From positions 2,981,910-3,045,909 of the forward strand of contig NZ_CP031165.1 of the NCBI RefSeq assembly GCF_003344865.1: DNA of 64,000 nucleotides, given 5' to 3'. The notes below the pieces were generated by a model, which saw only the letters and a program-made list of their open reading frames with translations, was not told where the DNA came from and searched no databases. Positions 34,079 to 39,509 of this stretch are shown here, in pieces (positions within the stretch are counted from its first letter, which is position 1; each line of letters opens with the position of its first letter). This DNA is from Euzebya pacifica. GTDB lineage: Bacteria > Actinomycetota > Nitriliruptoria > Euzebyales > Euzebyaceae. The position numbers and the translations under genes are program-made.

Positions 34079-34142
34079 CGGAACACTGTCGACGCACCCG
34101 CCTCCCGGGCGTTCTGCGTCACATCCCGTAGTCTTGACCACG

Positions 34143-35666
34143 ATGGTTGGCGACGAACCGTTGCTGCTGGTCGGTGCTGACGTCGTCACGCTCGACGACG
34201 CGAGACCCCACGCCAGCGCCCTGCTCGTCAAGCGACGTCGGATCGCTTGGCTCGGCGCGGTGGAGGACATCCCGACGGTCCCCGGCGTGCGCCGGATCGA
34301 CCTGACGGGTGCCACGGTGATGCCGGCGTTCGTCAACGCCCACAGCCACCTCACCAACGTCGGCCTGGCGCTGAACGCCATGGACCTGTCGATCGCCGAT
34401 TCCCTGTCGGACTGCCTCGGCGCGGTCGAGGCCATCGCCACCGTGACACCCCACCGCGTGATCTGGGCCGGCGGATGGGACGAGACGAAGTGGCCCGAAC
34501 ATCGCGCCCCGTCCGCTGACGACCTCGCCCGCGCCGGTGACGACCGACCCGTCATGCTCGTGCGTGCCGACGGCCACTGCGTCGTGGTGGACCGCACGTC
34601 GCTGTCGGCCCTGCCGATCGCCCGGTCCCGCGGTGTCGAACGAGGCCCCGACGGTCGGCCGACCGGCCTGCTGCGCCAGGAAGCCGCACAGGTGGCGCAG
34701 CGCTGGTTCAGCGCCGAGATGCCCGAAGGCGTCCTGTCCGAGGCCCGGGCCTCCGCCGCGGAACACCTGGTCACCCTCGGCGTGGCAAGCGTCCACGAGA
34801 TGGGCGGCCCCCACCGGATGGGCCCCGCCGACTTCGACGCGTGGCTGCAGGGCAAGTGGCCGATCGAGGTCATCCCCTACTGGGGCGACCTCGACCTGGA
34901 GTTCGTGGTCGAACGAGGGCTGCGTCGCGTGGGCGGCTCGTTGCTGCTCGACGGCACCATCGGCAGCCACAGCGCCGCGCTCGTGGAGCCCTACGTCGAC
35001 CGTGCCGGTTCGGGGCAGCTGTACCGCGACTCCGCGGAGCTCACCGAGTTCGCGCTCGAGGCGACCCGACGCGGGATCCAGGTGGCGCTGCACGCCATCG
35101 GCGACCGAGCCGTGGCCCAGGCCATCGAGGTGCTCGAGAAGGTCGCGGCCGAGGTCGGTGTCGCCCAGCTGCGACGGTTGGCCCACCGGATCGAGTACGC
35201 CGCCCTCATCCAGCCCGAGCAGATGATCCGGTTGGCGCGTCTCGGGGTCGTGGTGGTCATCCAGCCCGCGACCGACCTGAGCCTCGGGGTCGACGGCGGC
35301 GCCTACGAGCTGCGACTCGGTACCGAACGCGCCAGGTCGTCCAACCCCCTGAGCTCGCTGGCATCCCACGGCATCCCGCTTGCGTTCGGCTCGGACAGCG
35401 TGGTCAACCTGGACCCCTGGCGATCCGTCGACGCGGCGGCCGAACCCCGGGTCGGCCTGCCCGCCCTCGAACGCCAGATGGGTATCCGTGCCGCCACCCT
35501 CGGGGGACGCACCGCCGCACATCAGGCCAACGTCGGTGTGCTGCGGCCGGGCCAACGCGCGGACCTGGCCGCCTTCGAGCACCCCGACGACGCCGAACGA
35601 CGTCGCTGCATCCTGACGATGGTCGCCGGCCGCCCGGTGTTCGAGGACGGACGGGTCCATGTCTGA
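34143..35666 (+). CDS. Amidohydrolase-family protein (YtcJ-like)
   Basis: A 507-residue amidohydrolase. The strand-1 metal motif is NAHSHLTN (H.H), with further metal or catalytic histidines in ALHAIGDRAVAQ and AHRIEYAAL and the aspartate in LAFGSDSVVNLDPW. Beta-sandwich halves sit at both ends (ADVVTLDDARPHASALLVKRRRIAWLG and RADLAAFEHPDDAERRRCILTMVAGRPVFEDG). YtcJ-type enzymes hydrolyse amides or related bonds of unknown physiological substrates. The ATG at 34143 has a TAGTCT -10-like hexamer just upstream. The last 8 bases overlap the next gene. Confidence 0.85.
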   Translation: MVGDEPLLLVGADVVTLDDARPHASALLVKRRRIAWLGAVEDIPTVPGVRRIDLTGATVMPAFVNAHSHLTNVGLALNAMDLSIADSLSDCLGAVEAIATVTPHRVIWAGGWDETKWPEHRAPSADDLARAGDDRPVMLVRADGHCVVVDRTSLSALPIARSRGVERGPDGRPTGLLRQEAAQVAQRWFSAEMPEGVLSEARASAAEHLVTLGVASVHEMGGPHRMGPADFDAWLQGKWPIEVIPYWGDLDLEFVVERGLRRVGGSLLLDGTIGSHSAALVEPYVDRAGSGQLYRDSAELTEFALEATRRGIQVALHAIGDRAVAQAIEVLEKVAAEVGVAQLRRLAHRIEYAALIQPEQMIRLARLGVVVVIQPATDLSLGVDGGAYELRLGTERARSSNPLSSLASHGIPLAFGSDSVVNLDPWRSVDAAAEPRVGLPALERQMGIRAATLGGRTAAHQANVGVLRPGQRADLAAFEHPDDAERRRCILTMVAGRPVFEDGRVHV

Positions 35667-36240
35667 ACCCCAGTCCCTGCACCCGCCCGACCCGAGCCGC
35701 GCGGACGCGGCCCTCGCGGTCCTCGTCGGCGTCACGCCGGACATCGCCGTGGTGGCTGCTCGACGGGTCCAGGCGGACTGGCCGGGGCTCGGCCTGCTCG
35801 TCGCCGGCGCACTTGCCGCTGCCCGTTGGGGAGTGGACCTCGTACCGGCGATCCAGCGGCTGGCCGAGGACGAGCCCCTGCGGGGCACCACCAGTGACTA
35901 CGAGGTGCGCTTCGCCGTCGAGGAAGCAAGCGACGACCTCGACCGCGCCCTCGACCGGCTGGCCGCCGGCATGTGGGATGGCGAGGAGGGCGAGGCGATC
36001 CTCCTGCCGCCACGTGACGCCGAGATCGCGGCTGCCACGATCGCGATCGAAGGGCGAAGGGCCTGGCAGCTGGACGTAGGGACCCCGCCGGAGTCCAGCG
36101 CGCGGGTGGCCGCGCTCGCCACCCGCCTGGGCGCCCGACTGGTCACCGACGGTCATGATCCTGTCGCCCAGGCGACAGGACCGCTGGACGGCGACGAAAC
36201 CACGGTCCTCGTTGGGTGGGACCGGCTGCTCCGCACCTGA
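35659..36240 (+). CDS. Conserved-looking protein of unknown function
   Basis: A 193-residue protein that I do not recognise. The first half is Ala-rich and helical (ADAALAVLVGVTPDIAVVAARRVQADWPGLGLLVAGALAAARWGVDLV). The second half is mixed and acidic, ending VLVGWDRLLRT. No cysteine or histidine motif stands out and no signal peptide is evident. It overlaps the amidohydrolase by 8 bases, so it is cotranslated with it and may be a partner. It is the last gene before a 650-base gene-free region. Confidence 0.6.
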   Translation: MSEPQSLHPPDPSRADAALAVLVGVTPDIAVVAARRVQADWPGLGLLVAGALAAARWGVDLVPAIQRLAEDEPLRGTTSDYEVRFAVEEASDDLDRALDRLAAGMWDGEEGEAILLPPRDAEIAAATIAIEGRRAWQLDVGTPPESSARVAALATRLGARLVTDGHDPVAQATGPLDGDETTVLVGWDRLLRT

Positions 36241-36322: not shown

Positions 36323-36356
36323 TGCAGGTCAGCCGACATTCGGCTCAGAAACTGCA
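36323..36356 (+). repeat. Nested hairpin upstream of the candidate RNA
   Basis: An inner stem agccga-cat-tcggct (36331-36345) sits inside outer arms tgcag (36323-36327) and ctgca (36352-36356). It lies just before the -35 box at 36360 and after the upstream gene. It could be a terminator for that gene or a regulatory structure. Confidence 0.35.
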
Positions 36357-36359
36357 GGC

Positions 36360-36388
36360 TTGACGAGCATCGGGTGGCGTCCTAACGT
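36360..36388 (+). promoter_or_regulatory. Strong sigma70-type promoter with no gene behind it
   Basis: TTGACG (36360-36365), exactly 17 bases, then TAACGT (36383-36388): a near-consensus promoter, rare in this GC-rich window. No open frame with coding character follows before a strong terminator at 36667-36699. Confidence 0.6.
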
Positions 36389-36394
36389 CTGGCG

Positions 36395-36699
36395 AACGAG
36401 ATCAAGGAGAAGGCGTCCGCTGGACACGTTGGGTGTGACGAGGTGGGGCAACGGGTGAAGGGGAACTTCACCCGGTCTTGTCCCGCCTCCCAAGGTGCCA
36501 ACGACGGCACATGTGTACGGACCGCAACCGCACCGCCGGTTCGGTCCCCAGCCCGGGCGACCATGATCGATTGATCGGAAGGGAAGAGCGACACAGTAGA
36601 GAACGGCGGATTGGAGTTCGTCACGACAATCCGGTGGTGCCACCTGTCGCCCATCCCTCAACCGCAGCCGGCCCCGAACGCACAGCGTTCGGGGCCGGC
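36395..36699 (+). ncRNA. Candidate structured small RNA of about 300 nt
   Basis: The span from the predicted start (about 36395) to a 15-bp terminator stem has no plausible gene and several stable stems. The largest is 36440-36489: 12 bp (gaggtggggcaa with ttgtcccgcctc, two G-U pairs), a 3-nt bulge, 9 bp (cgggtgaag/cttcacccg) and a gggaa loop. Others are gtgcc/ggcac at 36495-36510, ggacc/ggtcc around aaccg/cggtt, and ggattg/caatcc. I do not recognise tmRNA, RNase P RNA, SRP RNA or a known riboswitch. The length and isolation recall the Ms1/6S-like RNAs of actinobacteria, but that is only a guess. Confidence 0.5.
36667..36699 (+). terminator. Strong terminator hairpin closing the candidate RNA
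   Basis: A perfect 15-bp stem (gccggccccgaacgc with gcgttcggggccggc) and a 3-base loop (aca). It is one of the longest perfect stems I noticed in the window. Confidence 0.7.
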
Positions 36700-36714
36700 G
36701 CCTGTTCGGGGCGA

Positions 36715-36763
36715 GACATCGCAGCCGTGACATCGCACCGCGACATTGCACGGAGACGTTGCA
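36715..36763. repeat. Four direct repeats of GACATCGCA type
   Basis: GACATCGCA (36715), GACATCGCA (36729), GACATTGCA (36742) and GACGTTGCA (36755) repeat every 13-14 bases upstream of the acidic-protein gene. They could be binding sites for a regulator; no palindromic symmetry is seen within a unit. Confidence 0.45.
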
Positions 36764-36889
36764 CCGGGGCGCTCGAACCGCTACACATGCGCCCGCTTCG
36801 GTGACCCGCACGTGTGCGGACGGCTCGACGGGCTACCCTGCCGGTCCCTCGCCACAGCGGCACCCATCCCCGACCCATGGAGGCCCGCG

Positions 36890-37363
36890 TTGACAGACCG
36901 CGACCTCGAGTCCACAGCAGCCGACGACCTCGACGACGACCTCGAGGACGACGACGACCTCGATGGTGACGATGACCTCGATGGTGACGACGACCTCGAC
37001 GACCTGGCAGACGACATCGCCGACGACGACGAGATCTACGACGCCGACGACGACACCGATGATGCCGACGACGACGACGTCGATGACGACGATGATGACG
37101 ACGACACGGAGGACGACGTCGTCGAAGAAGAGGACGACGACGCCGACGACCTCGACGACGAGCTCGACGAGCTCCTCGAAGAGGACGAGGAGGTCCAGCC
37201 ACTCGACGTCGAAGGCGTCGAGGACAGCAAGAAGGGCGCAAAGCCTCGCCGCAAGGTCGAGCTGATCAGCGAGGACGAGTTCACGTGTCGGTCCTGCTTC
37301 CTCGTCAAGAAGCCCTCGCAGCTCGCGGATCGCGACGAGATGCTCTGCTTCGACTGCGTGTGA
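36890..37363 (+). CDS. Hyperacidic protein with C-terminal DUF4193-like zinc ribbon
   Basis: A 157-residue protein. Residues about 12-105 are almost entirely Asp and Glu (runs such as DDDDVDDDDDDDDTEDD), a low-complexity, surely disordered segment. The C-terminus has the DUF4193-type sequence VELISEDEFTCRSCFLVKKPSQLADRDEMLCFDCV with CRSC and CFDC, a zinc ribbon. DUF4193 proteins are short and actinobacterial, and their role is unknown. The start is TTG at 36890, chosen for the ggagg six bases before it. The usual family N-terminus is only mildly acidic, so the extended polyacidic stretch is unusual. Confidence 0.75.
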   Translation: MTDRDLESTAADDLDDDLEDDDDLDGDDDLDGDDDLDDLADDIADDDEIYDADDDTDDADDDDVDDDDDDDDTEDDVVEEEDDDADDLDDELDELLEEDEEVQPLDVEGVEDSKKGAKPRRKVELISEDEFTCRSCFLVKKPSQLADRDEMLCFDCV

Positions 37364-37400: not shown

Positions 37401-38990
37401 GTGAGGCCCGTCCCGCCAGTCGTCCAGCGCCTCCTGATGGCCCTGGCGGGCGGATCGATGTTGTTCGCGGGCCATCCCCCCATCGACGCGGGGTGGCTCG
37501 GCTACGTGGCGCTCGTGCCCCTCGTGGCCCTCTCGCGGAACCTGTCGACACACCAACGTCCGTTCCGCGCGGGCCTCGGCTGGGGAACCCTCGCCGGGCT
37601 CGTCGCCTTCGGGCCCCTGCTGTACTGGCTGCTGCCGTTCGGGGTGGCCGCGTTCGGGCTGCTCGTCGTCATCCAGTCCATGTGGCTGGGCCTGTTCGTC
37701 GGGCTCGGCGCCGTGTACGGCGAACGGCTCTGGCGTCCCGCGGTCCTCGTGGCGCTGTGGGTCGGCATCGAGGCTGCCCGGGGCGTCTGGCCCCTGGGGG
37801 GCTTCGGGTGGGGCAGTCTCGGCTACACCCAGCACGCCGGAGGACCGCTGCTGGGCGTCGCTCGGACGCTCGGGGTCCACGGGGTGTCCCTCGCCCTCGC
37901 GGCGATCGCCGTGGCCGCGGAGGAGGCCATCAGGACCGGTCGCGCGGTCTGGCCTGCTGCACGGAAGGCCGAGATACCGGCCGAACACCTCTTCGGTGCC
38001 ATCCGCACGCCGTTGCTGACCGTGCTCGGGGTCCTGTCCCTGGCCGTCCTCCTGACCGGCGAGGCCCCCGAGCCGACCGGCGGGACCGTCGAGGTGGGGA
38101 TCGCCCAGGCCGGTGACACCCGCGCCACGGCTGCGGCTGGGGTCAACCGGCTCGACAGCGATCGCATCCAACGCGTGGCCGAGCTGGCCCTGCAGGCGAC
38201 CCAGCCGTTCGCCGCTGACCCACCGGACCTGGTGATCTGGCCCGAGAACTCCCTGGACATCGACATCCGCACCCCCCGCGGCGAGCCGATCGCGGACCTG
38301 CTGGCCGCAGGACTGGAGGCCGTCGCGCCCACCCCCATCCTGGCGGGGGAGTACATCGGCGGGCCACAGCCGAACACCCTCTTCAACCGCATGACGGTGT
38401 TCACCGAGGAGGGAGAGGGCGCGAGCTACGTCAAGCGCAAGCCCGTCCCGTTCGGTGAGTACGTCCCGGCTCGGAGTCTCTTGGACTGGTTCCCGCCCCT
38501 CGAGCAGATCCCCAACGACACCCTGCCCGGTGCCGAGGCCCAGGTCCTCGAGGTCGCCGGCGCCCACATCGGAGGGGTGATCTGCTTCGAGAACATCTTC
38601 CCCGGCCTGGTCCGTGACCAGGTCCTGGCCGGTGCCGACCTGGTCGTCGTAAGCACCAACAACTCCTCCTTCGGCGACACGCCCATGTCGGCGCAGCACC
38701 TCGCGTTCAGCACGCTTCGCGCCGTGGAGACCGGCCGTTGGGTCGTGCACGCCGGCATCTCCGGGATCAGCGCCTTCATCTCTCCGGAGGGAGAGGTCCT
38801 GCAGCGCACCGAGCTGTTCGAGCCGGCCTCGCCCCGCATGGAGGTGCCCCTGCTCGACGGGACGACCATGGCCATGCGCCTGGGCAGCCTGGTGCCGGGG
38901 CTGGCCCAGATGATGGCCGTCGCCGCCATGGCGCTGGTGCTCGGGGAGCGCGTCCGTGCCCGAAGGACCGGGACCACCGAGGACGACTGA
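37401..38990 (+). CDS. lnt: Apolipoprotein N-acyltransferase
   Basis: A 529-residue protein, normal length for Lnt. About six to eight membrane helices fill residues 10-230. A periplasmic nitrilase-like domain follows with the triad glutamate in LVIWPENSLDI, lysine in YVKRKPVPFGEYVPAR and cysteine in GGVICFENIFPG. A final membrane helix lies near residue 500. It adds the third acyl chain to lipoproteins such as the one at 25044-25322. The GTG start is at 37401, 37 bases after the acidic-protein gene, so they may be cotranscribed. A bidirectional terminator follows. Confidence 0.93.
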   Translation: MRPVPPVVQRLLMALAGGSMLFAGHPPIDAGWLGYVALVPLVALSRNLSTHQRPFRAGLGWGTLAGLVAFGPLLYWLLPFGVAAFGLLVVIQSMWLGLFVGLGAVYGERLWRPAVLVALWVGIEAARGVWPLGGFGWGSLGYTQHAGGPLLGVARTLGVHGVSLALAAIAVAAEEAIRTGRAVWPAARKAEIPAEHLFGAIRTPLLTVLGVLSLAVLLTGEAPEPTGGTVEVGIAQAGDTRATAAAGVNRLDSDRIQRVAELALQATQPFAADPPDLVIWPENSLDIDIRTPRGEPIADLLAAGLEAVAPTPILAGEYIGGPQPNTLFNRMTVFTEEGEGASYVKRKPVPFGEYVPARSLLDWFPPLEQIPNDTLPGAEAQVLEVAGAHIGGVICFENIFPGLVRDQVLAGADLVVVSTNNSSFGDTPMSAQHLAFSTLRAVETGRWVVHAGISGISAFISPEGEVLQRTELFEPASPRMEVPLLDGTTMAMRLGSLVPGLAQMMAVAAMALVLGERVRARRTGTTEDD

Positions 38991-39096: not shown

Positions 39097-39342
39097 CTAG
39101 CCCTTGGCGTAGCGGCGGTTGTAGCGGTCAACACGACCCGCGGTGTCGACCATCTTCATCTTGCCCGTGTAGTACGGGTGGCTCGCGGCAGAGATGTCGA
39201 CCTTCTTCAACGGATAGGTCGTGCCGTCCAGCTCGATGGTGTCGCTGGTCTCGATGGTGGACCGGGTGATGAAGGTCCAGCCGTTGGCGCCGGTGTCCTG
39301 GAAGACGACCGGCCGGTACTCGGGGTGGATGTCAGCCTTCAT
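39097..39342 (-). CDS. rpmE2: 50S ribosomal protein L31, type B (zinc-independent)
   Basis: An 81-residue L31 of type B: MKADIHPEYRPVVFQDTGANGWTFITRST, with the C-terminal SHPYYTGKMKMVDTAGRVDRYNRRYAKG. It contains no cysteine, unlike zinc-binding type A. L31 bridges the two ribosomal subunits, and type B replaces type A under zinc limitation where both occur. It is the third gene of rpmB-rpmG-rpmE, starting two bases after the L33 stop. The bidirectional terminator lies 25 bases past its stop. Confidence 0.96.
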   Translation of the reverse strand: MKADIHPEYRPVVFQDTGANGWTFITRSTIETSDTIELDGTTYPLKKVDISAASHPYYTGKMKMVDTAGRVDRYNRRYAKG

Positions 39343-39344
39343 GC

Positions 39345-39509
39345 CTACTTCTCTTCCTTGAAGTCCACGTGCTTGCGGACCACCGGGTCGTACTTCTTCA
39401 TGGTGATGCGCTCGCGCTGGGTGCTCTTGTTCTTGGTGGTCATGTAGGTGAAGCCGGTGCCCGCGGAGGAGCGCAGCTTGACCTTGATGCGGTTGTCGTT
39501 GCGTGCCAT
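39345..39509 (-). CDS. rpmG: 50S ribosomal protein L33, zinc-independent type
   Basis: A 54-residue L33: [20 protein letters not shown], then [33 protein letters not shown]. It has no cysteines, so this is the C- form. Its ATG overlaps the rpmB stop by one base (TGATG), and rpmE follows after two bases, so the three are translationally linked. Confidence 0.95.

Follow-up and report, generated by a model that had tools for sequence, protein, structure and literature searches.

A predicted free-standing RNA of Euzebya pacifica whose core hairpin recurs over much of Actinomycetota

Gene context of the locus

The window, by which we mean the whole 64,000-nt stretch of Euzebya pacifica DNA that was analysed, contains a predicted RNA gene downstream of an amidohydrolase gene and upstream of a gene coding for a DUF4193 protein. 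The features of this locus are as follows.

34134..35666, forward strand: upstream amidohydrolase gene (PF07969, E 1.5e-66), the ancestral neighbour of the RNA, also found beside it in other classes
35659-36240: gene overlapping that of the amidohydrolase; its 193-aa product matches nothing in Pfam or NCBIfam
36324..36333, forward strand: GCAGGTCAGC, one half of a conserved upstream inverted repeat, the other half being degenerate in Euzebya
36360..36388, forward strand: sigma70-type promoter TTGACG-N17-TAACGT, recognised by sequence and by conservation at homologous positions
near 36394, forward strand: predicted start site
36394..36702, forward strand: predicted RNA gene, about 309 nt, supported by its fold and by conservation relative to the sister species
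about 36440..36489, forward strand: long 21-pair hairpin of the predicted fold, part of the lineage-specific 5' domain
36581..36658, forward strand: core hairpin of the new RNA family, 78 nt, supported by the best match of model R3 in the window and by covariation
36581-36593/36645-36657, forward strand: outer stem of the core; the inner stem starts from 36604/36636
36595..36604, forward strand: 5' strand of the internal loop, AGUAGAGAAC
36636..36644, forward strand: 3' strand of the internal loop, GGUGCCACC
36667-36681/36685-36699, forward strand: terminator-like perfect 15-bp hairpin
36759..36787, forward strand: separate promoter-like sequence of the gene downstream, TTGCAC-N17-TACACA, with its -10 region kept in four species
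36890..37363, forward strand: downstream gene for a DUF4193 acidic zinc-ribbon protein (PF13834, 32.7 bits with a cut-off of 25, matching the C-terminal part)
37401..38990, forward strand: gene for apolipoprotein N-acyltransferase Lnt (PF20154 and PF00795), which adjoins the RNA in several classes

The DUF4193 protein has a very acidic N-terminal tract and a C-terminal CxxC...CxxC ribbon. Its gene lies beside the RNA in many classes, and the two may be functionally linked. Further along, ORFs on the minus strand (39097-39509) resemble ribosomal proteins bL31 (type B) and bL33 in a form that lacks cysteine pairs, like that of zinc-independent paralogues.

Promoter, transcript and terminator of the RNA gene

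The preliminary description of this DNA had proposed a promoter-to-terminator unit encoding a structured RNA of about 300 nt outside the known classes, and this proposal is well supported. Its promoter lies exactly at 36360-36388. As a generic promoter scan did not flag this site, the case for it is conservation: a TTGAC-N17/18-TANNN[TC] promoter occupies the homologous place in 15 of 15 homologues of the order, and a GC-rich terminator hairpin does so in 14 of the 15. The transcribed region had also been described as lacking coding character, which agrees with the listed ORFs within the unit not being conserved. The stem of about 21 pairs, named as the best of several stable ones, is present, and so is the perfect 15-bp terminator stem, though without a U tract.

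The minimum free energy of the predicted transcript is -165.4 kcal/mol, compared with -126.5 ± 4.9 for shuffled sequences (z = -7.9, with 0 of 100 shuffles as low). The transcript ends are not paired with each other in the predicted minimum-energy fold, which consists of separate domains instead. DNA similarity searching matched only one sister species, 94% identical over the predicted RNA. Compared with the nearest relative, the core shows 100% identity and the 5' part of the RNA 95%, while the upstream gene reaches 74% and the flanking spacers 78-83%. The 5' domain is absent or different in other classes.

Judged by its sequence, the RNA locus is an independent transcription unit, because the downstream gene has a separate promoter-like sequence with a conserved -10 region.

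Core hairpin and its invariant internal loop

Using the DUF4193 gene as an anchor, we collected 26 loci from 30 genomes of the order; the core was undetectable in seven of the 26. Most loci of the order have, upstream of the DUF4193 gene, AGUAGAGAAC followed by a hairpin and then by GGUGCCAACGG. Alignment of 18 sequences from the order gave two stems around an internal loop, with 13 of 17 pairs changing on both sides, above the level of shuffles and slides. Covariance model R1 was built from the order alignment, R2 and R3 being broader models. R3, whose training excluded Euzebya, found its best match in the 64-kb window at the core (36581-36658; 27.7 bits, E = 0.0006), 200-fold ahead of the next one. 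A score of only 27.7 bits with this broad model makes Euzebya a divergent member of the family.

In the R3 alignment of 77 distinct homologues, which is fitted to its own model, 88.7% of cells pair and 18 of the 19 pairs change on both sides (in 401 cells, compared with 143 ± 9.5 after shuffling); the covariation score is 0.698, and slid partners reach no more than 0.154. The independent counts are the MAFFT-based ones, and they agree. Both core stems covary, and the homologues extend across the phylum. When MAFFT and RNAalifold were applied to whole transcripts, only the terminator and the core gave a result, since the 5' part cannot be aligned.

The internal loop, flanked by these two covarying stems, is nearly invariant in the family (AGUAGANAAC / GGNNC[C/G]AAN). 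While the stems vary, AGUAGA is kept in 77 of 77 distinct homologues and C-[C/G]-A-A in 76-77 of 77, matches whose letters the search pattern had fixed being excluded from the count. The sole C-[C/G]-A-A exception is the Euzebya window itself, where the second invariant A (of CCAA) is replaced by C. The window thus carries what characterises the AGUAGA-hairpin family, namely the loop between two covarying stems and the RNA's own promoter on the same strand.

The conserved hairpin is 60-98 nt long across the family, and the promoter is separated from the core by about 56 to 238 bp, depending on the lineage. The variability of this distance makes the 5' part dispensable and leaves the hairpin as the minimal unit; in some lineages nearly the whole RNA appears to consist of it. 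A T-rich stretch follows the core in several short forms, and the long forms have terminators.

Apical loops are conserved within lineages and differ between them (one subtype has GGGGAAGG, the order of the window GUUCGUC). Together with a free-standing gene that has its own promoter, this would suit a base-pairing small RNA in which the apical loop acts as the seed and the hairpin as a stabilising scaffold. We regard such a role as unlikely: the most conserved letters are located in the internal loop between two covarying helices rather than in the apical loop, and the type found in family f12 has only a very short apical loop.

Distribution over Actinomycetota

With R1, 43 of the 66 class genomes and 48 of 396 across the phylum proved to have the element. 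Of the same 396 phylum genomes, R2 matched 85 and R3 97 (about a quarter), the latter in 63 genera. There are one or two copies of the RNA per genome, and some families have two paralogues. Scanning of named genomes with a degenerate pattern gave, among the matches listed, Actinomadura, Microbispora, Nonomuraea, Nocardiopsis, Thermomonospora, Serinicoccus, Phycicoccus and Ornithinimicrobium, as well as Acidimicrobiales and Nitriliruptorales.

A CCGAAGGG variant of the motif is found in a single-genus family in which R3 matches 11 of 11 sampled genomes. There, an AsnC/Lrp regulator gene is followed by the amidohydrolase gene, the RNA, a ppm1-like glycosyltransferase gene and that of RbpA, and by this order the genus is probably Streptomyces. 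The RNA was found in none of 41 genomes of a Mycobacteriales-like family, a result obtained with strict search filters, so that this absence is no proof.

Pattern matches in a gammaproteobacterial MAG, a Clostridia MAG and Alicyclobacillus were set aside as chance or unrelated ones. An AGTAGAGAACCACACC... element with near-identical copies near contig ends of one gammaproteobacterial MAG (L103, L136 and L149) is probably an unrelated repeat. Carriage by phages or viruses was rejected, as the four exact pattern matches in virus contigs all appear to be chance ones within coding sequence.

Neighbouring genes and the free-standing character of the RNA

In several classes, the neighbours are arranged as amidohydrolase-RNA-DUF4193-lnt, and in others only DUF4193 or lnt is present. 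Streptosporangiales-like genomes have the RNA beside a 4HBT thioesterase gene and polA, or beside an ANTAR response regulator gene; in other lineages it lies beside genes for a LysM protein and ABC/Mce-type genes. Two loci of probable Streptomyces (L291 and L294) have the RNA adjoining ppm1, a few genes from rbpA, with the AsnC/Lrp regulator gene beyond the amidohydrolase gene.

The frequent presence of DUF4193, lnt or ppm1 downstream and on the same strand could mark the RNA as a leader or riboswitch acting in cis on the gene that follows. This reading we consider very improbable. The RNA ends in a terminator hairpin and the downstream gene has a separate conserved promoter; moreover, the terminator lies outside the conserved part of the RNA. 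From class to class the gene downstream is a different one, and at some loci it is oriented towards the RNA, so neither a constant downstream function nor an expression platform in its mRNA was found.

Promoters of the form TTGACN-N16-18-TANNNT are present within 320 bp upstream on the RNA strand in 53 of 128 distinct loci and on the opposite strand in none of the 128. Since the neighbours vary by lineage and promoters occur on the RNA strand only, the RNA is free-standing and not a leader; it probably acts in trans.

The same strand bias bears on whether the conserved element is an RNA at all. The covariation would be compatible with extruded or single-stranded DNA too, in the form of a hairpin element serving as a recombination, replication or protein-binding site. 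Such a DNA element is most improbable, given the oriented promoter upstream on one strand only, the T-rich stretch or terminators after the core in short and long forms, respectively, the one or two copies per genome, and virus contigs giving no match beyond chance coding ones.

A conserved palindrome upstream of the promoter

Upstream of the promoter lies a palindrome, TGACCTGC-N16/17-GCWGGTCA (also written TGACCTGC-N16-GCAGGTCA), and the whole repeat is clear in other genera. Its end is separated from the -35 element by 28 bp in most genera of the order and by 18 bp in two. In probable Streptomyces and two other families the distance, read from the sequences, is about 8 bp. These spacings differ from one another by about one helical turn each, which is what a protein bound to one face of the DNA would require. 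In three genomes, the exact palindrome occurs at a single site per genome, at the RNA gene. We infer that it is a candidate site of a dedicated regulator of this gene. The palindrome was also seen at homologous positions in loci L010-L031, L072, L075, L249 and L291.

Comparison with 6S RNA, Ms1 and CoRP

The preliminary description had likened this RNA to 6S and Ms1, and that likeness was not borne out. As an RNA of the 6S/Ms1/CoRP type, it would use its interrupted hairpin to mimic an open promoter and sequester RNA polymerase. The RNA described here resembles them in having a hairpin with an internal bubble and a strong promoter of its own, and in probable Streptomyces it lies near rbpA. Ms1 and CoRP were described in the Mycobacteriales lineage (PMC4191392, PMC11077062), and the RNA is absent from the sampled Mycobacteriales-like family, as if it had been replaced by Ms1/CoRP or vice versa.

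With 6S RNA (RF00013) the family shares a hairpin with an internal loop and a free-standing gene. However, no match to the Rfam 6S model was found in the window, either at gathering or at E<=5. 6S RNA has a length of about 160-200 nt and a closing stem of its ends around a large central bubble, whereas here there is no large open bubble, the ends of the window transcript are unpaired, its domains are separate and the core of 60-98 nt is shorter than any 6S. The loop letters are also far more conserved than a promoter mimic needs.

Ms1 (MTS2823, scr3559) shares with the RNA a length of about 300 nt in some members, its own sigma70-type promoter, an interrupted long hairpin, a free-standing gene and the actinobacterial hosts. 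Ms1 is marked by an adjoining HAD-IB hydrolase or oxidoreductase gene and is already present in Streptomyces at another locus (PMC9130861). The neighbours found here are amidohydrolase, DUF4193, lnt, ppm1 and others, with no HAD-IB hydrolase gene; the two RNAs also differ in that the conserved unit of the present family is only 60-98 nt, has invariant loop letters and was not found in the Mycobacteriales-like family.

CoRP and scr0792 (about 85 nt) are polymerase-associated and, like this RNA, are actinobacterial structured RNAs outside the classical families. They are located in other intergenic regions (tRNA-flanked and SCO0791/SCO0792, respectively; PMC11077062), and it is by position that they are told apart here. 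RIP-seq in S. coelicolor found scr3559 and scr0792 on the polymerase, the RNA locus not being named in the main text of that report (PMC11077062). Overall, none of the testable 6S or Ms1 features is present in the RNA; binding to RNA polymerase is a possible role, to which we give a low probability.

Novelty of the family

No Rfam family matched the window or its 19 relatives at gathering or permissive thresholds (E<=5), except for chance microRNA and hairpin matches. This covariance-model check, 6S included, had been proposed at the outset and is in line with an RNA outside the known classes. In the main texts searched, we found no report that names the motif or its counterpart region in Streptomyces, which probably lies between the amidohydrolase gene and ppm1 (SCO1424/SCO1423). 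The transcript may be present in the supplementary lists of Streptomyces small RNA surveys (e.g., PMC3765725), unrecognised as a family.

Models and alignments make it nearly certain that this RNA represents a new, uncatalogued family spread over much of Actinomycetota. The novelty is at the level of the RNA family: free-standing structured small RNAs as a broad kind have precedents, and the mechanism may yet prove to be a familiar one. It seems that an entire conserved RNA has escaped notice, even though probable Streptomyces and other antibiotic producers have it. Structured RNAs conserved over much of a phylum and not yet known are few, and 6S, tmRNA and Ms1 proved central to physiology. 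With the minimal unit defined, together with its invariant loop and covarying stems, its promoter and a putative regulator site, pull-down and deletion experiments in Streptomyces are feasible.

Proposed function

We lean towards a free-standing, trans-acting non-coding RNA of an uncatalogued actinobacterial family, with a protein bound at its loop and a regulator at the palindrome. The invariant letters are in the closed internal loop and not in the apical loop, so contact with a protein or ligand is favoured over antisense pairing, and the RNA most likely works as the RNA of a ribonucleoprotein through this loop. The internal loop would be the binding site of a conserved protein, and the RNA, acting in trans, could be either a ribonucleoprotein component or a decoy or regulator of the bound protein. 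A dedicated regulator on the palindrome would turn the RNA on or off. The more far-reaching form of this proposal, an ancient phylum-wide RNA that forms a dedicated ribonucleoprotein with an actinobacterial protein via its invariant loop, is controlled by its own single-site transcription factor and has been overlooked, is put forward tentatively.

AGUA opposite (C/G)AA, with the following G-C pair, is reminiscent of a bulged-G platform of the loop-E type. The AGUA strand opposite (G/C)AA in an internal loop is shared with the bulged-G module (loop E / sarcin-ricin), whereas the family mostly has CAA instead of GAA, and the likeness is one of letters only.

The lineage-specific apical loops (GGGGAAGG, GUUCGUC) may provide a second contact. 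In families f12, f48, f52 and f59, the second RNA paralogue (L241-L246 and L258) has the conserved apical loop GGGGAAGG, while the first paralogue has only a very short one. The same GGGGAAGG loop is common to this second paralogue and to the Streptosporangiales-like and f14 members.
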